A DNA stretch of 47,862 nt from Thermoproteota archaeon (GTDB taxonomy: Archaea; Korarchaeota; Korarchaeia; Korarchaeales; Korarchaeaceae). A program made the position numbers and the translations under genes. Below are positions 5,215 to 29,520 of the stretch, one piece after another (position 1 is the stretch's first letter; each line of letters starts with the position of its first letter). The notes below the pieces were generated by a model that ran no database searches, was not told the DNA's origin, and saw nothing but the letters and a program-made list of their open reading frames with translations. The stretch spans positions 1 through 47,862 of the forward strand of contig JAOZGJ010000012.1 of NCBI GenBank assembly GCA_027491785.1, given 5' to 3'.

Positions 5215-6120
5215 CGATCCTTGAATGAGAGCATTGGACCATAGGAGGATAGGCCTTTCCTCACCAGTTACTATATCTATCGCTTCAGCTATATCACCTG
5301 CAGCGTACACGTCCCTCGCACTAGTCTCCATGAATTCGTTAACGATTATCCCACCGCGTTCCTTGAACTTGATACCACTGTCCCTAATTACGTCCTTGTT
5401 AGGCCTGACCCCGGTAGCCACTACGACCATGTCAGCATCCAGTACCCTGCCATCTCCCAACCTCACTTGGCTCACGACACCATCACCCACTACCTCAGTT
5501 ACCCTGCTATTAACGAGCGCCTCGACCCCGTTCCTCTCGACTATCTCCTTGACTATAGTTCCCATCTCTCGATCGAACATGGCTGGAAGGAGCCTATCTA
5601 GAAGTTCGACTATGGTTACCTTAACCCCATGGGCTTTAAGTCCTATAGCAGCATCCAAGCCTATGAATCCTCCTCCTATCACGACAGCTTTCTCCACATC
5701 ATGGTGCTTCAGCCATTCGTGCATCCTATCTGCATCTTCCAGGGTCTTAAACGTGAACACTCCCTCCTTATCCAATCCACCTATTGGAGGAAGCGCCACC
5801 TTACCCCCAGCAGCTATTAAGAGCTTATCATAGCCTATAGTCTCACTGCCAACCTTTACCGTCTTCTTCTCAGTATCTATTCGGCTAACGGGCTTGCCCA
5901 ATATGGGAGTGACATCCATTCTCTCATAGAAATCCTTACCCTTCCAGAAGACCCTATCCCTCTCCTTTTCATTCTCCAAGTAATCTACGAGAACGCAGGC
6001 AGAGTAGGGGGGAGTATCCTCCCTCGATATCATGATTATCTCGGATGAATCATCGTACCTCCTTATGGATTCCACAGCACTCACGCCAGCTCCTCCAGTT
6101 CCTATTATGACAAATCTCAT
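5170..6120 (-). CDS. FAD/NAD(P)-dependent oxidoreductase (FNOR) of the CODH operon, N-terminal part, 316 aa
   Basis: This flavoprotein of the NADH oxidase/nitrite reductase family has a FAD-binding GTGGAG at its N-terminus, a second dinucleotide-binding GGGFIG near residue 152, and the FAD signature VYAAGDIAEA near residue 274. The chosen start is the ATG at 6120, where the Rossmann strand begins; the frame stays open to a GTG at 6129. A CooF-linked flavin oxidoreductase next to cooS is known in several CODH clusters and is thought to move CO-derived electrons to NAD(P). The frame stops at 5170 because of the insertion, losing the C-terminal domain. cooS is 38-47 bases upstream. Confidence 0.82.
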   Translation of the reverse strand: MRFVIIGTGGAGVSAVESIRRYDDSSEIIMISREDTPPYSACVLVDYLENEKERDRVFWKGKDFYERMDVTPILGKPVSRIDTEKKTVKVGSETIGYDKLLIAAGGKVALPPIGGLDKEGVFTFKTLEDADRMHEWLKHHDVEKAVVIGGGFIGLDAAIGLKAHGVKVTIVELLDRLLPAMFDREMGTIVKEIVERNGVEALVNSRVTEVVGDGVVSQVRLGDGRVLDADMVVVATGVRPNKDVIRDSGIKFKERGGIIVNEFMETSARDVYAAGDIAEAIDIVTGEERPILLWSNALIQGSIAGYNMVGSEGSRG

Positions 6121-6140
6121 ACCTAACACCCTATCTAAGC

Positions 6141-6160
6141 TAAAAAAGAGAGGGAAAATG
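6141..6160 (-). terminator. T-rich tract after cooS
   Basis: The 47-base gap between cooS and FNOR contains a minus-strand pyrimidine tract ending in six T. It may give partial termination inside the operon, so that cooF and cooS are made in excess of FNOR and cooC. Confidence 0.3.
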
Positions 6161-6167
6161 GAATTAT

Positions 6168-8044
6168 TTAGGGAAGCCCTAGGGCCTTCCTCTTCTTCTC
6201 TATATGGTCTATTATCAGTTTAGCCTCCTTCTCAGGATCCGGATCTACAGCGAAGGTTGCTCCTATAACATCGTCTAGATCCCTTGTAAGAAGATTCGTT
6301 ACGTTCACGCTACCTAGCACCGGAGGAACTGGTCCCAGCACAGTGAATATCCCGCTTGCCACAACATATGTCCCTATGCTAACCGCCTTCTCGGACATCC
6401 ACTCGGGGGCGGCACCTGCTATCGGCAGGTCGCTTATATCTACCCCGAGGTACTTGGCCACCTCCGCGGCCAGCACCAAAATCCTGCTGTTATCAACGCA
6501 AGATCCCATGTGAAGCACGGGAGGTATCCCATATTTCTTGCAGAATTCCCTTAGCCCTTCTCCTGCTAGATCAGCTGCTTCTGGAGTCATTAATCCCGCC
6601 TTACCGTTAGCTATGGCGGCGCACCCAGTCTCCACCACCAAGATGTTGTGCTCTATGAGCCTCTTCGTCAGGGTGACGTGGTTGTAGTCCTGCTTTATCT
6701 TCGGGTTGTTGCATCCGACTATGCCAGCGACTCCCCTTATCTTGCCTTCCTTAATTGCATCGACTAGAGGCTTGACTGAACCACCGAACGCCTTTAATAT
6801 GGCTTCAACGGAGAATCCAGCGAGGAGCTTCATGGATCTCTTGGGTATCCTCACCCTATCTGGGTTCCTATTCTCATACGCCTCTATAGCCATCTTCAAT
6901 ATCTCCTTTGCCGTGTCATAGCCATGCTCCGGCTCAAACTGCACGTGAATGGCTCCTGGGATCTTGGCCTTGTCCGATGTGGTGACCACCTTCGTATGAT
7001 AGCACTTGGCTATGTGAGTAACGGCGGGCATTATACACTGATAATCGACTATCATCACTTCAACTGCACCGGTAGCTATAGCTAGCTCCTGTAGGAGGAA
7101 GTTACCAGCAATTGGGATCCCCTGCCTCATCAGGAGTTCATTCCCAGTGCAGCACATTCCAACAACGTTTATCCCCTTGGCCCCTTTCTCCTGAGCCAGT
7201 TTAACTAGTTCAGGATCCTTAGCAGCCTTGGCTATCATGAAGGAGAGGACAGGATTGTGGCCATGCACCACGACGTTGACCATATCCTCCCTTAGGACGC
7301 CGAGATTGACCATTCCCTCCAAGGGTTCTGGTGTTCCGAACAGGACATCACTGAGCTCCGTTGCTATCATCGATCCTCCCCAGCCGTCAGCTATAGCTGC
7401 CCTTACCCCCTGCAGCAGTATGCTAACGTAATCTGCATCGACCCCTATATGGGTCCTGTGCATTATCTCGACTATCTCCCTGTCAATCCCTCTGGGAGTT
7501 ACACCCAGCTTCTCCCAGACCTTCTTCCTCTTATCGGGAGCCCTTTCCACGAATTGTATCCTATCTTTAATCATTCCGAATTCCCTCATCATCTCTATTG
7601 CCAAGTCCTTCGCTATTTCCTGGGGACTCCTGCCATCCACCTGGATCCCGTATTCATTGGCCAGCCTCTTAAGCTTCTCAACATCTGTCAGTTCATATCC
7701 CTGTGCCTCTCCCAAGGCAGTCTTGTACAACACCTCGACTATATCCCTGCCATGATCTGAATGAGCTGCTGCACCTCCTGCTATCATCCTAGCTAGATTC
7801 CTAGCTACGATCGTATCTGCATCAGCTCCACATACGCCCCTCTTCGGACCGTTCCCGAAGGGATCGATCCTACATGGTCCCATACCGCAGTTCCTGCAGC
7901 ATATCCCCAGGAGGCCGTAGCCGCATTGGGGCTGCTGTGCCTCTAACCTGTCCCACGCTGTCTCGAGGTGTTCTTGGGCAGCAACCTCAACATCTCTTGG
8001 GCGGCAGGGTCATACGATCTCTTCAAGATATCCTCCTTCCTCAT
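6168..8044 (-). CDS. cooS: CooS, Ni-Fe carbon monoxide dehydrogenase catalytic subunit, frameshifted near its N-terminus
   Basis: CooS interconverts CO and CO2 at a Ni-Fe-S C-cluster. From the ATG at 8044 (GGAGGTGA just upstream, overlapping the cooF stop) the reading gives SYDPAAQEMLR and then leaves frame; the frame from about 7984 on gives VAAQEHLETAWDR through to 6168. One missing G between 7985 and 7984 explains this. The restored protein is about 625 aa, normal for CooS. D- and B-cluster Cys fall at 41, 49, 50, 53, 58 and 72, the same spacing as the Carboxydothermus enzyme. C-cluster ligands are present in HGHNP, CCTGNE, YQCIMP, VGCNN, TGCAA and GSCVDNS. The uninterrupted main frame runs 6168-7883. 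Confidence 0.88.
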
Positions 8045-19666: not shown

Positions 19667-20302
19667 TCATCTGCTCTTTACCTTTATCAGTGAGTTAATC
19701 CTTTCTTCTATCTTTTTTTGCCCTTTTACGCTCCTCTCCTTCAGGATCTCAATGTACTTCCTGATCTTATTCGTATCGATTATCTCAAGCAGCCCAGGTA
19801 TGATATCATCGCTCGCTGGATACCTGAAGTATATGATATCTATAAGCGTCTTCTCAGGATCTGAAACCCTTACCCACTCTCTTAAATCCCCTAAATACTT
19901 GTACTCATATCCAAAATACATTTTACTTGAGATTTTTCTAAGTACTACCTTGAAACCAGCCACTTCACGAACTCCATGCTTGGCGATTCTCGAAACATCA
20001 GGGGAGAGTATGGTAACTGCTGTTACTTGGTTCCATGCCCCATGAAGGAATGCTGCTGATCCCAGTCCCACATAAGCTCTAGGCAGTGCTTTAGCCACCA
20101 TATAAGGCGATTTCTTGAAGGAGTACACTCCTTTCAATAGCTCAACTATCTGACCCTTCCTCCTCAAGTTATGAATGAGAACCTTGGCATAATTCCTCCC
20201 CACTGCTGCCTCAACTGACCTGAATGTGAAGAGAGATGCCTCCTTCAGCTTCTGAACGAGTTCGGAATGCCTAGTGGGCAAATCTCTCAACCTTCCTGAC
20301 AA
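19667..20302 (-). CDS. AbiEi-family antitoxin/transcriptional repressor, 211 aa
   Basis: This is the antitoxin of a type IV AbiE system. An N-terminal winged helix (about residues 10-60, ending in LLKGVYSFKK) is followed by the AbiEi C-terminal domain with AYVGLGSAAFLHG and RVSDPEKTLIDIIYF (about 146-160). It overlaps the end of the toxin gene by 32 bases. In known systems AbiEi represses its own promoter by binding two inverted repeats, and such a pair is present upstream of this operon. Confidence 0.82.
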   Translation of the reverse strand: MSGRLRDLPTRHSELVQKLKEASLFTFRSVEAAVGRNYAKVLIHNLRRKGQIVELLKGVYSFKKSPYMVAKALPRAYVGLGSAAFLHGAWNQVTAVTILSPDVSRIAKHGVREVAGFKVVLRKISSKMYFGYEYKYLGDLREWVRVSDPEKTLIDIIYFRYPASDDIIPGLLEIIDTNKIRKYIEILKERSVKGQKKIEERINSLIKVKSR

Positions 20303-20906
20303 TGGTCTCGAAGCTGGGGGGCCTTCCCATCAGCACAATCTCCTTCAGTATGGGGTAGTCCTCCGGTGGGCTCTTCAGGATGTATAGGAGTTCCTTGATA
20401 GGATTCCTTATTGACTTATCTTCACACATATCCAAGAGGTAGTACACGTCGTACAGATCTCTAGCCTTTCTCCTATTCATGTAAGCCCGTATCTTCTCCT
20501 CTAGGAGGGAGCAAGGTGACAGGGTCTTTACAACGATGCTGCTACCATCAATAAGCCAGAAGTCTTCCTCAATCACCTCCTTATCCTCGAACATGGGAGA
20601 AGCCTCTAGCTCCACCTCCGCTCCATCACTAACCCTTAGGTAGAGAACCCTAGAGGGTGTGATCTTCACCCTAGTTACGTTTAGGGCAGAGGAAAGGATC
20701 TCGGGAATCTTCTCAATATCTTGGCAGTATACATCCACGTCATATGAGAACCTCTTCCCCCCGTAAATCCTCCATATGGCCGTACCTCCATGTACTATGA
20801 AATCCACTTTCCTCGATAGTTCTAGAACAAGTGCATCCTGCACCTCAGCTATCTTAAGCATGGCACCCTTCAGTACCCTCATTAGAGGGATCCTCTTGTA
20901 CATCAT
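20271..20906 (-). CDS. AbiEii-family nucleotidyltransferase toxin, 211 aa
   Basis: This AbiEii/AbiGii-type nucleotidyltransferase has the core HGGTAIWRIYGG then RFSYDVDVYC (about residues 39-62), and SPCSLLEEKIRAYMNRRKARDLYDVYYLL (about 129-157) holds the conserved K/R-x-RDxYD motif. Characterised relatives block growth by modifying tRNA acceptor ends. The first of two adjacent ATG codons is given (20904-20906); the second is at once downstream. Here the toxin gene comes first, reversed from the common antitoxin-first order. Confidence 0.83.
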   Translation of the reverse strand: MMYKRIPLMRVLKGAMLKIAEVQDALVLELSRKVDFIVHGGTAIWRIYGGKRFSYDVDVYCQDIEKIPEILSSALNVTRVKITPSRVLYLRVSDGAEVELEASPMFEDKEVIEEDFWLIDGSSIVVKTLSPCSLLEEKIRAYMNRRKARDLYDVYYLLDMCEDKSIRNPIKELLYILKSPPEDYPILKEIVLMGRPPSFETIVRKVERFAH

Positions 20907-22110: not shown

Positions 22111-22899
22111 ATGGCTCCCATCTCCCGGTTAGATGAGGATATAGTTAGGGATATCTCTTTAGAAGGTAAGGTCGCGGTAGTGACGGGTGCATCCTCAGGA
22201 ATTGGGCGAGCTATTGCTATAAAGCTTGCTAAGGCTGGAGCTGAAGTTGCCATACTCGATATAGATATCGAGGATGGATTGAAGGTCCAAAATGAGATAG
22301 GTAAAGCCAAATTTTACAGATGCGATGTAGCATCAAGTGAGGAAGTTAAAGGGACCTTAAGATCTATCTATAGGGATTTTGGCAGAATTGATATAGTCGT
22401 CAATGCTGCTGGCGTTATAGTCAGGAAAAATGTTTTGGAGACGAGCGAGGAAGATTGGGATCGCGTCATAAACGTTAATTTGAAGGGTCCTTTCCTCGTC
22501 TCAAAGCATGCTATCCCTTACATGAAGGAAAGAGGAGGTGGAAGTATAGTTAACATAGCCTCAGGATGGGGCCTTAAGGGAGGACCGAAGGCGGTAGCCT
22601 ACTGCGCTTCCAAGGGAGGATTGATTAATATGACTAGAGCGATGGCAATAGATCATGGAAAAGACGGCATTAGGGTCAACTGTGTAGCTCCCGGAGATAT
22701 AGATACTCCTATGCTCAGAGAGGAGGCGAAGCAGCTGGGAGTTAATCTTCAGGAGTTTTTAGAGGAAGCTGCGGATAGACCAATAAAGAGATTAGGAAAA
22801 CCAGAAGATGTAGCTAATGCTGTTCTTTTCTTGGCTAGTGATCTCTCAAGCTGGATAACTGGCTCCGTTATTGTGGTTGACGGGGGAGGTCTAGCTTAA
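22111..22899 (+). CDS. SDR family oxidoreductase, 262 aa
   Basis: This short-chain dehydrogenase is closest in layout to the FabG/glucose dehydrogenase group. TGASSGIG (about residues 30-37) binds NAD(P), NAAG is near 97, the catalytic Ser is in NIASGWG, and YCASKGG gives the Tyr and Lys. The end SSWITGSVIVVDGG is standard. An Asp after the second strand (LDIDIEDG) favours NAD over NADP. It is the first gene of a tight set with the GcvP-like pair and the kinase, 14 bases from the next gene. Confidence 0.9.
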   Translation: MAPISRLDEDIVRDISLEGKVAVVTGASSGIGRAIAIKLAKAGAEVAILDIDIEDGLKVQNEIGKAKFYRCDVASSEEVKGTLRSIYRDFGRIDIVVNAAGVIVRKNVLETSEEDWDRVINVNLKGPFLVSKHAIPYMKERGGGSIVNIASGWGLKGGPKAVAYCASKGGLINMTRAMAIDHGKDGIRVNCVAPGDIDTPMLREEAKQLGVNLQEFLEEAADRPIKRLGKPEDVANAVLFLASDLSSWITGSVIVVDGGGLA

Positions 22900-22913
22900 A
22901 TTGAGGTGATACG

Positions 22914-24308
22914 ATGGCTACTACTCCCTATTCTCATCCCTATATCCCCAACTCCTTAGATAGGGTAAAGAGGGAAATGTTGAGATACATAGGGGTTGAG
23001 AGTATAGAGGAACTTTACGCAAGTATACCCGAAGATCTGAGATTTAAGGGGAAGATGAACCTTCCTGAACCTCTTCTTTCAGAGTATGAGCTCGTGAGGC
23101 ATATAAAGGGAATACTCTCCAAGAATAAGAGCTGCGAAGATTACCTATGCTTCATGGGAGGTGGTACTTGGCCTCATTACGTTCCTGCGATATGCGATGA
23201 AATTGCCAGGAGATCTGAATTTCTCACTGCTTATGCGGGGGATCCATGCGAGGATCATGGTAGATGGCAAGCTCTCTTCGAGTTTCAAAGCCTAATGGCT
23301 GAGCTAGTTGATATGGACGTCGTCACAGTTCCCATCTATAGTTGGGGACATGCAGCAGGAACAGCAATGAGAATGTCTCACAGGATAAATGGCCGCAAGA
23401 AAATTCTTATACCTTCAACAATATCCCCTGAGAGGTACATGGTCGTGAAGAACTATACAGATCCAGCTCTGACGCTAGAAAAGGTGAGATATGATGAAGA
23501 GACTGGGATGATGGATCTAGGCGATCTCGAGAGGAAGATGTCAGAGGATGTCTCTGCAGTTTACTATGAAAATCCTTCCTACTTGGGCTTTATAGAGACT
23601 AGAGGTAGAGAGATATGTGATATAGCCCATAATATGGGAGCTTTATGTCTAGTTGGGGTAGATCCAAGCTCTCTTGGAGTTTTAGAACCTCCAAGCCATT
23701 ACGGTGCCGATATAGTTGTTGGGGATCTCCAGCCATTAGGCAATCACATGAATTTCGGAGGAGGACTTGCAGGCTTCTTGGCAACTAAAGATGAAGTTAG
23801 GTTCGTTAGGGAGATACCTTATAGAATATTCGGCTTAACCAAGACATCTCAAGAAGGTGAGTATGGATTTGGGGATGTGCTCTTCGAGAGGACCTCTTTT
23901 GAGAAAAGGGAGAAGGCAAAGGAGTTCGTTGGGACAGCTACGGCTCTCTATGGAATAGTAGCTGCAGGATATTTATCCTTAATGGGGCCCAGGGGGATGT
24001 ACGAGCTTGGCAAGACCATACTCGAGAGATCCAAGTACGCTATGAAGATCCTGTCGGAGATAAACGGAGTTACTGCGCCCATGTTTAAAGCCCCTCACTT
24101 CAAGGAATTCGTGGTGAACTTCAATACCGATAAGAGCATCGCTGAGATAAACAGGGAACTGCTGAGTGAGGGGATCTTTGGAGGTATAGATCTTAGGACC
24201 AGCTTCCCAGAGCTTGGTAACTCCTCACTCTACTGCTTCACTGAGGTACACACCAAGGAGGATATAGACAGGCTCGCGAGTTCCCTTGAGAGGATATTAA
24301 AGGGGTGA
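22914..24308 (+). CDS. gcvPA: GcvPA-like PLP-fold subunit, 464 aa, divergent
   Basis: This protein is homologous over its length to the N-terminal half of glycine decarboxylase. It keeps the opening YIPNSLDRVKREML, a DLPExL-like region, RRSEFLTAY, and late GG(G)LAGFLATKDEVRF and TSQEGEYGF-type segments. Several near-invariant motifs differ: the usual TPYQPEISQG reads AGDPCEDHGRW and the usual NASxYDGxTA reads VPIYSWGHAAGTA. These face the active site in the known enzyme. It may therefore act on another amino acid. It is four bases from its partner gene. Confidence 0.8.
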   Translation: MATTPYSHPYIPNSLDRVKREMLRYIGVESIEELYASIPEDLRFKGKMNLPEPLLSEYELVRHIKGILSKNKSCEDYLCFMGGGTWPHYVPAICDEIARRSEFLTAYAGDPCEDHGRWQALFEFQSLMAELVDMDVVTVPIYSWGHAAGTAMRMSHRINGRKKILIPSTISPERYMVVKNYTDPALTLEKVRYDEETGMMDLGDLERKMSEDVSAVYYENPSYLGFIETRGREICDIAHNMGALCLVGVDPSSLGVLEPPSHYGADIVVGDLQPLGNHMNFGGGLAGFLATKDEVRFVREIPYRIFGLTKTSQEGEYGFGDVLFERTSFEKREKAKEFVGTATALYGIVAAGYLSLMGPRGMYELGKTILERSKYAMKILSEINGVTAPMFKAPHFKEFVVNFNTDKSIAEINRELLSEGIFGGIDLRTSFPELGNSSLYCFTEVHTKEDIDRLASSLERILKG

Positions 24309-24312
24309 TCTT

Positions 24313-25872
24313 ATGGGGATAATAAAGCTTAGAAGGGAATTCCACGAAGCCAGATGGGAGGAGCCCATAATATTCGAGCTGAGCAATGAGGGGGAGAGAG
24401 GGATCTTAGTTCCAAGAGACGAAGAGATGGAGGAAATGGTAGGAGATGTCATATCGGCGTTGCCGAGCGAGATTGTCAGGAAGGAGCCCCCCAAGCTGCC
24501 GGAACTCTCACAGAAGAGAGTTCTTATGCACTACCTCAGGCTCTCCCAAGAGACGCTAGGGGCCGATATTAACGTAGATATAGGGCAGGGAACGTGCACT
24601 ATGAAATACAGTCCCAAAGTAAACGAATTTCTCGTTCAATCTCCGAAGGTCAGCGAGCTTCATCCTTATCAGAGCGAAGAAACTGTTCAAGGAGCCTTAG
24701 AAATAATGTATAAGCTTGATCTATTCCTTAGGGAGATATCTGGCTTAGATAGATTTGTTTTCCAGCCTGGGGGAGGATCTCAGGCTATCTTCGCTATGGC
24801 ATCGATAATCAGGGCTTACCATAAGAGCAGAGACGAAAATAGGGATGAGATCATAACGACAATATTCTCGCATCCATCTGATGCTGCGGCCCCAGCAGTG
24901 AAGGGCTTCAGGGTGATCACCATATACCCTGACCCAGAGACCGGTATCCCTGATGTGGAGGCTCTGAAAGAAGCTGTCTCTAGAAGGACTGCTGGACTTA
25001 TAATAGCAAATCCGGAGGATACGGGGATATTCAATCCGAAGGTAAAGGAATTCACCGATATAGTCCATGAAGCCGGAGGTCTCTGTGCCTATGACCAGGC
25101 CAATGCAAACGGCCTCCTCGGCATGGTGAGGGCGAGGGAATGCGGCTTCGATATGGGTTTCTTCAACCTACATAAGACATTCTCATCACCCCACGGGAGT
25201 GGAGGACCCGCTGTGGGGGCATTGGGAGTTAGGAAGGAGCTTGAGGGATTCCTTCCAGTTCCAATAGTCGAGTATGATGAATCGAAAGGTAAGTACTACC
25301 TTAGATACGATCTTCCAAATACTATAGGGAAAGTCAGAGAGTTTTATGGAGTCTTCCCAGTGGTGCTAAGAGCCTATGCTTGGATAATGTCCCTTGGAGA
25401 GGAGGGAATTAGGGAAGTAGCTAGGATAGCTGTCTTGAACAACAACTATGTCATGCATAAGATATTGAGGGAGGTAAAAGGTGCTGATATATCTTACCCA
25501 GCTAATAAGCACAGGATAGAGCAGGTCAGGTATACTTGGGAGAAGGTTAGGAAGGATACTGGGGTAACCGTTGAGGACGCCATAAACAGGATGTATGACT
25601 TTGGATTCCATCTCTGGACGAGTCATCATCCATGGATCATACCTGAGCCATTCACCATAGAACCGACGGAATCCTACTCGAAGGAGGAGTTAGATGAATA
25701 TATAGAAGGACTGAAGGAAGTAGCTAATGAGTCCTATGAGGAACCTGATAGAGTGAAGCTTGCCCCTCACAGGAGTTCCATCCATAGGATAGATGTAAGT
25801 TGGCTTAACGATCCATCTAAGTGGGCTATCACTTGGAGGCTCTATCTTAGGAAGCACGGTGATGCCCGTTGA
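24313..25872 (+). CDS. gcvPB: GcvPB-like PLP-fold subunit, 519 aa, divergent
   Basis: This is the PLP-binding partner of the previous subunit. The Schiff-base Lys is Lys288 in NLHKTFSSPHGSGG, and the TCTMKYSPK stretch (residues 94-102) is kept. Other landmark motifs of glycine decarboxylase are changed: LQPAAGAHGE is FQPGGGSQAIF, PDSAHGTNPASA is SHPSDAAAPAV, TNPNTLGLF is ANPEDTGIF, and DGANLNA is DQANANG. This suggests a real change of substrate or partner. GcvT, GcvH and Lpd are absent nearby. Its TGA overlaps the TTG start of the kinase gene. Confidence 0.8.
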   Translation: MGIIKLRREFHEARWEEPIIFELSNEGERGILVPRDEEMEEMVGDVISALPSEIVRKEPPKLPELSQKRVLMHYLRLSQETLGADINVDIGQGTCTMKYSPKVNEFLVQSPKVSELHPYQSEETVQGALEIMYKLDLFLREISGLDRFVFQPGGGSQAIFAMASIIRAYHKSRDENRDEIITTIFSHPSDAAAPAVKGFRVITIYPDPETGIPDVEALKEAVSRRTAGLIIANPEDTGIFNPKVKEFTDIVHEAGGLCAYDQANANGLLGMVRARECGFDMGFFNLHKTFSSPHGSGGPAVGALGVRKELEGFLPVPIVEYDESKGKYYLRYDLPNTIGKVREFYGVFPVVLRAYAWIMSLGEEGIREVARIAVLNNNYVMHKILREVKGADISYPANKHRIEQVRYTWEKVRKDTGVTVEDAINRMYDFGFHLWTSHHPWIIPEPFTIEPTESYSKEELDEYIEGLKEVANESYEEPDRVKLAPHRSSIHRIDVSWLNDPSKWAITWRLYLRKHGDAR

Positions 25873-27014
25873 AAGTAGGCCTCATAGTCAATCCAATAGC
25901 TGGAATGGGTGGGAGGGTCGGCCTGAAGGGAACGGATGGTCCTGATATACTGAGGAAAGCAATAGAACTTGGAGCAAAGCCTTGGGCTGAAGATAGGGCT
26001 TACGAATCTATGAAAGTCTTGAGGAGCCTCATACCTGACGATTCCCTTGACGTCTACACGTACCCAAGTAAGATGGGAGAGAGCTCCGCCAGAAGGGCAG
26101 GTTTCTCCCCTAGGGTGATAGGGAAGATAGGGGATGAAACCACAGCGGAGGACACTGTAAGGGCAGCGAAGGATATGAACAACTTGGGAGTAGACCTAAT
26201 ACTCTTCACTGGAGGCGATGGAACTGCGAGGGATGTCTACAGAGCTATAGATGAGAAGCAAGTTGTCTTAGGGATACCCGCTGGGGTCAAGGTATACTCC
26301 TCCGTTTTCGCTGCCAGCCCCAGAGCAGCGGGGGAACTTGCGGCTAGGTTCCTCAGAGGGCAGGTAACTGAAGTAGTGGAGGCCGAGGTCTTGGACATAG
26401 ACGAGGATGCCTTTAGGGAGGGGAAGCTATCCATCAAGTTATATGGCTACCTGAAGATCCCATACGACTCCCTCTACATACCTGGAGGGAAGATCCCCTC
26501 GGGCCACTCCGAGAATTACGCGAAGGAAGCAGCGGCTACTGAATTCATAGATAATATGGAAAAGGATTGCATCTACATAATAGGACCGGGAACTACGACA
26601 AAGGAGATAATGAAGAAGTTGGGGCTTGAGTATACGCTGCTGGGAGTCGATGCCATTGAGGGAGGCAAGCTCATAGGGAAGGACCTGAACGAGGAGCAGA
26701 TAATCGACCTGATATTCGCTAAAAGGGATAAAGCTAAGGTCAAGGTTGTGGTATCTCCAATAGGGGGCCAGGGATACATCTTCGGCAGGGGGAATCAGCA
26801 GATAAGCCCGAAGGTACTGAGGATGATAGGCAAGGAGAATATTATCATCATAGCAACTCCTGGAAAGATAGAATCCATGAGGGGAAAGCCCATGCTCATT
26901 GATACCGGAGATGAAGAGCTAGACGAGGAACTAAGTGGCTACTATAGGGTGATATTGGGTTACAGGGAATATATAATTTACAAGGTGGTTCCTGGATATG
27001 GTGGAGGCTCTTAG
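25869..27014 (+). CDS. AcoX-like ATP-NAD kinase family protein, 381 aa
   Basis: This COG3199-type member of the NAD kinase/diacylglycerol kinase-like superfamily has NPIAGMGGRVGLKG at its N-terminus and the nucleotide-binding FTGGDGTARDVY near residue 118. A second GPGTTTKEIM near residue 236 and GGQGYIFGRGNQQISP near 298 match AcoX of acetoin gene clusters. The role of AcoX is not established; NADP supply for a linked dehydrogenase is one idea. The TTG start overlaps the gcvPB-like stop by three bases, so it is translationally coupled. Confidence 0.8.
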   Translation: MKVGLIVNPIAGMGGRVGLKGTDGPDILRKAIELGAKPWAEDRAYESMKVLRSLIPDDSLDVYTYPSKMGESSARRAGFSPRVIGKIGDETTAEDTVRAAKDMNNLGVDLILFTGGDGTARDVYRAIDEKQVVLGIPAGVKVYSSVFAASPRAAGELAARFLRGQVTEVVEAEVLDIDEDAFREGKLSIKLYGYLKIPYDSLYIPGGKIPSGHSENYAKEAAATEFIDNMEKDCIYIIGPGTTTKEIMKKLGLEYTLLGVDAIEGGKLIGKDLNEEQIIDLIFAKRDKAKVKVVVSPIGGQGYIFGRGNQQISPKVLRMIGKENIIIIATPGKIESMRGKPMLIDTGDEELDEELSGYYRVILGYREYIIYKVVPGYGGGS

Positions 27015-27106: not shown

Positions 27107-27712
27107 ATGTATTCCGGTGATCCTAGGCTTGAGATGTCTCTAACTTCCGAGGAGAAGAAAAAGTTCCTCAAAGCCCTTGAGGAGGATGAGGAGTTCAAAT
27201 ATGCTGTAGGTGGACTGCTTGGCTATAAGGAGATACTAGATAGGATAATCTCCATAGAGGAGAGGCAGGCGAGGCTTGAGGAGAGACAAACGAGGCTTGA
27301 GGAGGAGATGAGAAACACCAGGAGACTACTTATGGTAATAGCCCACAGATTTGGGGTATTATCAGAATCTTCATTTAGAGAAGGTATGGAGTACGTAGTC
27401 GAGGAGATATTAGGAGTAGCTGAAGTTTCAAGGTTCATCATGAGGGATGATGAAGGCCTAGTTTACGGGCATCCATCGGATGTGGAGGTAGATGTACTCG
27501 TCAAGGACGATCAGCACATATTGATTGAGGTAAAGTCCCGCGTATCAAAGGGAGATGTAGCAGAGCTTTATAGGATAGGTCTCCTCTATGAAAAGAAACG
27601 GGGTGTCAAACCCAAGCTGCTCATCATAGGAGGATTCATTGATGAGGGTGCTAAGGCCTTAGCAAAGGAACTCAACGTCGAGATAAGGCCGATCGTTGAG
27701 GAACCATTGTGA
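27107..27712 (+). CDS. DUF3782-type protein with coiled coil and nuclease-like domain, 201 aa
   Basis: The N-terminal part is a charged coiled coil with repeated heptads (ARLEERQ, TRLEEEM; about residues 45-70). The C-terminal part has a PD-(D/E)XK-like core: DVEVDVLVKDDQHILIEVKS (about residues 139-158) with Asp and the E-x-K pair. This arrangement matches the DUF3782/DUF3783 proteins common in thermophilic archaea, whose function is unknown. It follows the kinase gene by about 90 bases and may be separately transcribed. Confidence 0.7.
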   Translation: MYSGDPRLEMSLTSEEKKKFLKALEEDEEFKYAVGGLLGYKEILDRIISIEERQARLEERQTRLEEEMRNTRRLLMVIAHRFGVLSESSFREGMEYVVEEILGVAEVSRFIMRDDEGLVYGHPSDVEVDVLVKDDQHILIEVKSRVSKGDVAELYRIGLLYEKKRGVKPKLLIIGGFIDEGAKALAKELNVEIRPIVEEPL

Positions 27713-28731: not shown

Positions 28732-29520
28732 ATGCCCTTTAATGCATGGCTGGCCCTTGGACCAGTTGGAATGATCTTAGTTGGCGTTCTCTCGATCATA
28801 ATATGGAGATTTAGGAGTCGCACAAAAATGAAATACTTCCTAGTCGGAGGAGCCGTGTGGGCCGCAGCCATATCGCTTAAGCTGGTCTTGGAGCTTACAA
28901 TCACACCGAAGCTGCTATGGATCTCTTCGTTAGGATCAACAGTATTTCTAGCAGTCATTGGAGCATACGTGGGAATAAGAACAGGGTTGTTCGAATGCGG
29001 GTTGACTTACATAACATTCATCAAAAGCGATCTGAGGAATATGTCCTTTGATGAAGCTGTAGCGTTTGGGATAGGCTTTGGCGCTTTAGAAGCCATTCTG
29101 CTTGGCTTTCAATCCTTGATACAGATCCTGATGTTTACGTTCAATCCGAAACTTCTCTTCCTGATACCTGAACCCCAGAGGAGGATTGTGGAAGCCAGTC
29201 TTAGCATGCCGACATGGGTAGCCGCTGCTCCAGTGATAGAGAGGATCTTCACCCTCTTCTCTCACATCTTCGCTATCCTGCTTATACTGGTCTCTGTGGC
29301 TCGGAGCAGGCTTATCTTCTTTCTACTCTCCTTCTCCTACAAGAGCCTTCTAGATGCCCTACTACCGTACATCCAAGTGACGTTCAAACCGAACATCTCG
29401 CCCATAGGAGCCTATGAGGCGGAGATCTGGATCGTCTTCATGGGGTCTATAGCCCTCCTTGGAACCACTTGGGTGAGGAGATATCTCTTATCGACACCTG
29501 CTTCCTTCGTAGTTAAATGA
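28732..29520 (+). CDS. YhfC-like intramembrane protease family protein, 262 aa
   Basis: This polytopic membrane protein has about seven helices. Motifs of the YhfC group (PF10086) are visible: FGIGFGALEAILLG near residue 110 with the conserved Glu, GLFECGLTY with the preceding Glu, and PVIERIFTLFSHIFAILL near residue 163, which supplies Glu and His. The family is predicted to be metalloproteases but has little direct characterisation. It is divergent from sixA across a short spacer. Confidence 0.65.
   Translation: MPFNAWLALGPVGMILVGVLSIIIWRFRSRTKMKYFLVGGAVWAAAISLKLVLELTITPKLLWISSLGSTVFLAVIGAYVGIRTGLFECGLTYITFIKSDLRNMSFDEAVAFGIGFGALEAILLGFQSLIQILMFTFNPKLLFLIPEPQRRIVEASLSMPTWVAAAPVIERIFTLFSHIFAILLILVSVARSRLIFFLLSFSYKSLLDALLPYIQVTFKPNISPIGAYEAEIWIVFMGSIALLGTTWVRRYLLSTPASFVVK

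Follow-up and report, generated by a model that had tools for sequence, protein, structure and literature searches.

A stretch of 47,862 nucleotides from the genome of a heat-loving korarchaeote (Thermoproteota archaeon, GenBank assembly GCA_027491785.1, contig JAOZGJ010000012.1; hereafter the window) carries a four-gene operon whose two central genes encode relatives of GcvPA and GcvPB, the subunits of the P-protein of glycine decarboxylase (GDC). We call these proteins PA* and PB*. We propose, at a probability of about 0.5, that they are the two subunits of a P-protein-derived, pyridoxal phosphate (PLP)-dependent enzyme that has lost its partnership with H-protein and decarboxylates an amino acid other than glycine to a free amine. 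The first-pass annotation of the window, made from its letters alone, had suspected that the pair is probably not a glycine decarboxylase. Sequence comparison supports this part of the proposal well, because the pair forms a separate clade, is never found beside GcvH, and occurs in hosts without GcvT, true GcvH, and canonical GcvP; a substrate different from glycine is very probable on the same grounds. The genes and diagnostic sites of the operon are listed below.

22111-22899, + strand: short-chain dehydrogenase/reductase (SDR) oxidoreductase, 262 amino acids, NAD-type, accessory operon member (PF13561/PF00106)
22914-24308, + strand: PA*, GcvPA-like subunit, 464 amino acids (NCBIfam NF001696, PF02347, AlphaFold2 fold, separate clade)
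23232-23246, + strand: PA* residues 107-111 (YAGDP), where the canonical YTPYQPE is shortened (alignment)
24313-25872, + strand: PB*, GcvPB-like catalytic subunit, 519 amino acids (NF003346, AlphaFold2 fold, separate clade)
25018-25020, + strand: Asp236 of PB* (Thr of NPNTLG in canonical proteins), clade-diagnostic (site comparison)
25174-25176, + strand: codon of Lys288 of PB* (HKTF), the PLP lysine (invariant in two alignments)
25528-25530, + strand: Arg406 of PB* (EQVR), clade-diagnostic new arginine (site comparison)
25869-27014, + strand: AcoX-type (COG3199-like) kinase, 381 amino acids, TTG start (PF01513 79 bits, PF20143 74 bits)

The first-pass annotation was right about the four genes and the gaps of 14 bases (SDR-PA*) and 4 bases (PA*-PB*); the AcoX start and the PB* stop overlap by 4 bases (TTGA) rather than by 3.

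Separation of the pair from canonical P-proteins

Both Pfam and NCBIfam assign PA* and PB* to the P-protein subunit families, and the NCBIfam equivalogs score them above their cut-offs (NF001696 on PA*, 512 bits versus 364; NF003346 on PB*, 559 bits versus 441). Consistent with these assignments, the AlphaFold2 models predict the fold of a two-subunit P-protein for each chain: the top PDB fold matches were 9a73_A and 1wyt_A for PA* (predicted local distance difference test score, pLDDT, 82.6) and 9a73_B and 1wyu_B for PB* (pLDDT 74.7). Group II decarboxylases and sphingosine-1-phosphate lyases followed as the next fold neighbours after GDC.

We built trees of the PB subunits (107 rows) and of the PA subunits (102 rows); these were quick trees, rooted at the midpoint only. 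In both, one branch split all PA* and PB* sequences (60-61) from the 42-46 canonical sequences, with support of 100 in the Shimodaira-Hasegawa-like approximate likelihood ratio test, and the stem in the PB tree measured 0.79 changes per site. The pair therefore stands outside the canonical GcvP clade, in a clade of its own, and on these two trees we rejected ordinary divergence of GcvP within archaea.

The six landmark motifs that had been described as replaced in the window are replaced across the family: TPYQPE..SQG (0/60 PA* versus 38/44 canonical), S.YD (0/60 versus 37/44), AAGA.GE (0/61 PB* versus 32/46), AHG[TS]N (0/61 versus 46/46), PNT.G (2/61 versus 40/46), and DGAN.NA (0/61 versus 44/46). 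LGSCTMKY is likewise found in 0/61 family members; over all seven motifs, the canonical counts were 32-46 of 44-46. In Thermus thermophilus numbering, near-complete switches were T214D, V378R, H375E, Y405H, M415T, G167P, A131G, and P162T in PB, and P97G, S103D, Q308S, and deletion of Y98 in PA. The Asp236 site of PB* is D in 100% of PB* and T in 100% of canonical sequences; the Arg406 site is R in 100% of PB* and V in 85% of canonical sequences. PA Y98, the second Tyr of YTPYQPE, is deleted in 60/60 PA* and is Tyr in 42/42 canonical sequences, while the first Tyr is kept. Mapped by eye, Y98 corresponds to Y164 of human GLDC, which is listed as an active-site residue (PMC7259800); beyond that paper, no list of glycine-site residues was found in the literature searched. 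A docking study places the segment TREQHIRRDK..TSN at the H-protein interface (PMC7259800). This segment is mostly replaced in the family, but two key basic positions are still basic, so it is not decisive alone. The family keeps the PLP lysine (Lys288, invariant in HKTF of PB*, as had been noted) with its His neighbour, the His in AHG/SHP and the Asp in DxAN, as well as much of the glycine-rich framework. At the level of the alignments, these comparisons show descent from the P-protein, with the PLP lysine and the His and Asp landmarks kept and the motifs on the substrate and H-protein sides replaced. PA*/PB* keeps a known fold and PLP chemistry base, but its partners differ and its substrate very probably does too.

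Genome context points the same way. GcvH adjoined none of 83 PA*/PB* loci (not de-duplicated), whereas the same query found it at 31 canonical loci. In Clostridium symbiosum ATCC 14940 (G043) the single P-protein-type gene is PA*, and GcvT is absent; a marginal match to the GcvH profile (~22 bits), inside a 156-amino-acid frame, was read as a biotinyl-type domain. Four drafts (G040, G044, G036, and G050) have no GcvT, no GcvH above cut-off, and P-proteins of the PA* type only. We excluded G053 (L085) from the list of genomes without a canonical copy, since it has a canonical PB and a partial PA at a contig end, and G061 from the list of genomes without a glycine-cleavage system, since GcvT-domain proteins are present. 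Most other PA*/PB* hosts also have the canonical system. These gene inventories show that GcvH is not linked to the pair and that some hosts of the pair lack a glycine-cleavage system; in such hosts genome context appears to exclude a role in glycine cleavage.

The home genome (1.79 Mb, 114 contigs, judged korarchaeal from its relatives) itself encodes canonical GcvPA and GcvPB with GcvH on contig C53, GcvT on C47, and a lipoamide-dehydrogenase-like protein that scores below the curated cut-off. PA*/PB* is thus a second copy beside the canonical P-protein of the same genome, and the earlier remark that GcvT, GcvH, and Lpd are absent holds for the window and not for the genome. Of the 29 genomes compared within the phylum, seven besides the home genome encode PA* at 78-89% identity. 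Six of the seven also hold a canonical copy, ~40% identical to PA*; G024 (72% complete) gave a PA* match without a canonical match. Overall, PA* and PB* are ~37-44% identical to the canonical korarchaeal subunits.

Gene neighbours and candidate reactions

To compare neighbours, we used 65 PA*/PB* loci and 49 canonical loci; the canonical side has less sequence (445 kb versus 958 kb searched), so its zero counts are weaker than the GcvH contrast, which runs the opposite way. A homologue of the window SDR and an AcoX gene were each present at 44 of the 65 loci. The first-pass annotation would have taken constant presence of both as support; they are common but not universal partners. Several further classes occurred at PA*/PB* loci but never at the 49 canonical ones: class III aminotransferases (omega-transaminases; 7 loci), NhaC-type antiporters (6), PrdR-like sigma-54 regulators (11), acyl-CoA synthetases (4), 3HCDH-family dehydrogenases (6), Sox/DAO-type oxidases (6-7), APC permeases, and, in Gemmobacter, a primary-amine oxidase. 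Six of the seven aminotransferases form one group of 59-87% identity that spans Actinobacteria and Antarctobacter. These neighbourhoods suggest a setting in which amino acids are taken up and catabolized; several lineages also have enzymes that consume amines, and these enzymes fit a decarboxylase. We also considered hydroxyproline- or opine-like genes (DAO, 2Fe-2S/FAD, DapA, 3HCDH, SSADH) as a clue to the substrate, and set them aside, as they belong to actinobacterial and alphaproteobacterial loci and are not common to Clostridia or Korarchaeota. Two Anaerolineae carry a CaiB-type CoA-transferase gene between PA* and PB* (L066:6234-7430, L071:932-2128).

In the mechanism we favour, PB* would form the aldimine at Lys288 and PA* would complete the active site as its second wall. 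The substrate, an amino acid different from glycine, would lose CO2, and the amine would be released rather than handed to lipoyl-H-protein. Depending on the lineage, further oxidation of the product may fall to an omega-transaminase or amine oxidase, or perhaps to the NAD-linked SDR. In the least certain step, AcoX might phosphorylate some small hydroxylated compound of this pathway. Several points weigh against decarboxylation to a free amine by a stand-alone enzyme. The amine oxidase is a single case, and amine-consuming neighbours are limited to certain lineages of Actinobacteria, Alphaproteobacteria, and Chloroflexota; what Clostridia and Korarchaeota conserve beside the pair are the SDR and AcoX, and a plain decarboxylase needs neither. 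In addition, several genomes that lack the glycine-cleavage system are draft assemblies, in which absence is not proof, and the AlphaFold2 models are monomers, one per subunit, while the active site sits at the subunit interface.

The main alternative, which we hold less probable, is that PA*/PB* acts as a C-C lyase or cleaves a beta-keto acid. A beta-hydroxy amino acid or an amino alcohol would first be either oxidized by the SDR or phosphorylated on its hydroxyl by AcoX, and PA*/PB* would cleave the result by a retro-Claisen or retro-aldol reaction, a logic that may be comparable to that of sphingosine kinase and sphingosine-1-phosphate lyase. Such a pathway would employ both conserved partners; the SDR is NAD-type with its catalytic residues intact, AcoX weakly matches DAGK_cat, and both subunits have sphingosine-1-phosphate lyases among their next fold neighbours. 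These neighbours are, however, generic fold-type I enzymes. Moreover, the SDR is missing from several loci and decayed in the nearest relative, locus L036 (G012; positions 5500-6400, with stops and loss of YCASK), so it cannot be obligatory, and cleavage does not directly explain the amine oxidase and transaminase contexts. Because PA*, PB*, and AcoX are intact in L036, these three are the functional core of the operon.

We consider it improbable that the pair is still a glycine decarboxylase, serving as an alternative P-protein whose acceptor is GcvH from the same genome, a different lipoyl protein, or lipoamide in free form. The kept fold and PLP residues, the scores above the GcvPA and GcvPB cut-offs, and the presence of GcvH in the home genome and in most genomes that also hold canonical GcvP would all agree with this role, but the pair never adjoins GcvH, its landmark motifs are replaced, it would repeat the role of the home genome's canonical copy, and C. 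symbiosum and the four drafts lack the rest of the system. Transamination, racemization, or elimination on an amino acid, with no decarboxylation, has a slimmer chance still. Reaction type switches easily among fold-type I enzymes, and the invariant R406 in the C-terminal part of PB* is new; PA*/PB* nonetheless retains the build of GDC, in which PA is a subunit of its own, and no direct positive evidence favours these reactions.

The first-pass annotation had offered a further version, in which the SDR uses the product of the PLP enzyme and the kinase makes NADP for the SDR. Gene order and family names would accommodate it. We regard it as very improbable, and NADP supply to the window SDR by AcoX as unlikely, because the SDR family carries an NAD-type Asp and a second NAD-kinase-type gene is present. 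An Asp after beta2 is the usual mark of NAD preference in SDRs, and it was found in 38/38 comparable sequences; the catalytic Ser and the YxxxK motif were each present in 39/39 aligned. The second gene, elsewhere in korarchaeal genomes (on C75 in the home genome), is shorter, mostly ~290-300 amino acids. AcoX is also kept in L036, where the SDR has decayed. Against the best equivalog the SDR scored 289.8 bits with a cut-off of 312, and its best PDB matches were uninformative.

AcoX itself has both NAD-kinase domains, PF01513 and PF20143, above cut-off, and the GGDG motif is present in all 50 members of the AcoX tree; a phmmer search of the PDB matched only artificial alphaRep repeats. The PA*/PB*-linked AcoX proteins separate from the korarchaeal AcoX linked to canonical gcv genes with support of 100/99. 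In korarchaeotes without PA*/PB* (L043, L044, L046, L047, L054, and L055), an AcoX-type gene lies within a few kb of canonical gcvPA/gcvPB; in those with PA*/PB*, AcoX lies within that operon instead, and G012 may have both. This pattern suggests a general link between AcoX and P-protein-type enzymes. More tentatively, PA*/PB*-AcoX could be a P-protein-derived catabolic module whose reaction is new for the fold: a kinase of the NAD-kinase superfamily and a GDC-like enzyme that works without H-protein would process one hydroxylated amino acid or amine in successive steps. On this reading, horizontal transfer would have carried the module between bacteria, both anaerobic and aerobic, and on into archaea, under the label glycine dehydrogenase everywhere.

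Distribution, origin, and genomic setting

A diagnostic segment of PB* served as the query in a scan of 84,980 species genomes. Matches in Clostridia came from C. symbiosum, Enterocloster, Filifactor, C. hydrogeniformans, and Alkaliphilus, and further matches from Fermentithermobacillaceae, Chloroflexota, a Desulfobulbus metagenome-assembled genome, Bipolaricaulota, Acidobacteria, Aminicenantes, and Actinobacteria. The clade itself spans Korarchaeota, Clostridia, Chloroflexota, Desulfobacterota, Bipolaricaulota, Actinobacteria, Alphaproteobacteria, and one haloarchaeon. The family is thus widespread, but its occurrence is patchy: in a sample of one clostridial class, ~6/391 genomes held a full-scoring member (>700 bits taken as a member, near 500 bits as canonical). 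Some Clostridia have two or three PA*/PB* pairs (L144, L146, L148, L149; G040, G042, G044) with different transporters (tripartite ATP-independent periplasmic (TRAP), oligopeptide ATP-binding cassette (ABC), or NhaC), as if specialized by substrate. Plasmid-borne members were found in Gemmobacter, Rhodococcus jostii RHA1, R. qingshengii, Sphingomonas, Paracoccus aminophilus, Antarctobacter, Roseicitreum, and the haloarchaeon Natronosalvus. A closely related AcoX-PA*-PB* module on plasmids of Actinobacteria and Alphaproteobacteria (L164, L165, L166, and L171) suggests a mobile catabolic module. Korarchaeal PB* proteins nest inside Bacillota, adjoining Fermentithermobacillaceae with support of 98; this branching points to a bacterial origin, with thermophilic Bacillota as the probable source of the korarchaeal operon.

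Across the korarchaeal genomes with PA*, the operon genes stay together despite different flanks (on the short contig L037 the AcoX position falls past the contig end). We rejected chance adjacency because the gene order recurs in Clostridia and in other korarchaeotes whose flanks differ, and contamination of the window contig because L036 has the same flanking genes, in order and at 77-94% identity. Relative to the nearest relative, the ratio of nonsynonymous to synonymous substitution rates (dN/dS) was 0.04-0.06 for PA*, PB*, and AcoX, with dS >1.5 and thus near saturation; in a closer pair it was 0.06-0.10. As estimated from these substitution rates, the three genes are under strong purifying selection, and the low dN/dS rules out pseudogene status for the pair. 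Elsewhere in the window, two overlapping open reading frames on the - strand (19667-20906) resemble, judging by sequence, an AbiE-type pair, with a nucleotidyltransferase-like protein and a transcriptional-regulator-like partner. Downstream of the operon lie a DUF3782/PDDEXK_10 protein (27107-27712) and a YhfC-type intramembrane metalloprotease (28732-29520).

Implications and comparison with known systems

No description of the PA*/PB* family was found in the literature searched, which left most subscription journals outside. The family is mislabelled, in that NCBI equivalog models name it glycine dehydrogenase above curated cut-offs. Because PA* and PB* pass these models, genome-based claims of glycine cleavage or reductive glycine metabolism can be wrong where the sole "GcvP" is PA*/PB*, as in C. 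symbiosum and Enterocloster. A passage in a published korarchaeal reconstruction credits glycine use to GcvPA and does not mention a second copy (PMC10667645). If our proposal is correct, the family shows how a lipoyl-dependent decarboxylase can turn into a stand-alone enzyme, and its class-diagnostic residues make the substrate directly testable.

PA*/PB* shares with canonical GcvPA/GcvPB (T. thermophilus 1WYT/1WYU and the B. subtilis-type model 9A73; NF001696/NF003346) the fold, the two-subunit build, the HKTF lysine, the conserved His, and the Asp of D-x-A-N. It differs from them in the replaced substrate-side and H-protein-side motifs, the deletion of PA Tyr98, the lack of GcvH linkage, the occurrence in genomes without a glycine cleavage system, and its separate clade. 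The group II PLP decarboxylases, such as the L-tyrosine decarboxylase MfnA, are fold-type I enzymes whose decarboxylation to an amine resembles the chemistry we propose, and sphingosine-1-phosphate lyase is likewise of fold-type I and among the next fold neighbours; both are distinct families with ~13-19% identity to PA*/PB* and are single-chain enzymes without a PA-type partner. The window kinase has the GGDG motif and both NAD-kinase domains of the AcoX/ATP-NAD kinase family (COG3199-like), but known AcoX is linked to acetoin dehydrogenase genes, whereas the window kinase is linked to PA*/PB* and stands apart from the korarchaeal AcoX linked to canonical gcv genes. Finally, the window SDR retains the catalytic Ser-Tyr-Lys and the Rossmann motif of classical SDRs (PRK06138-type), with a score below the curated cut-off.

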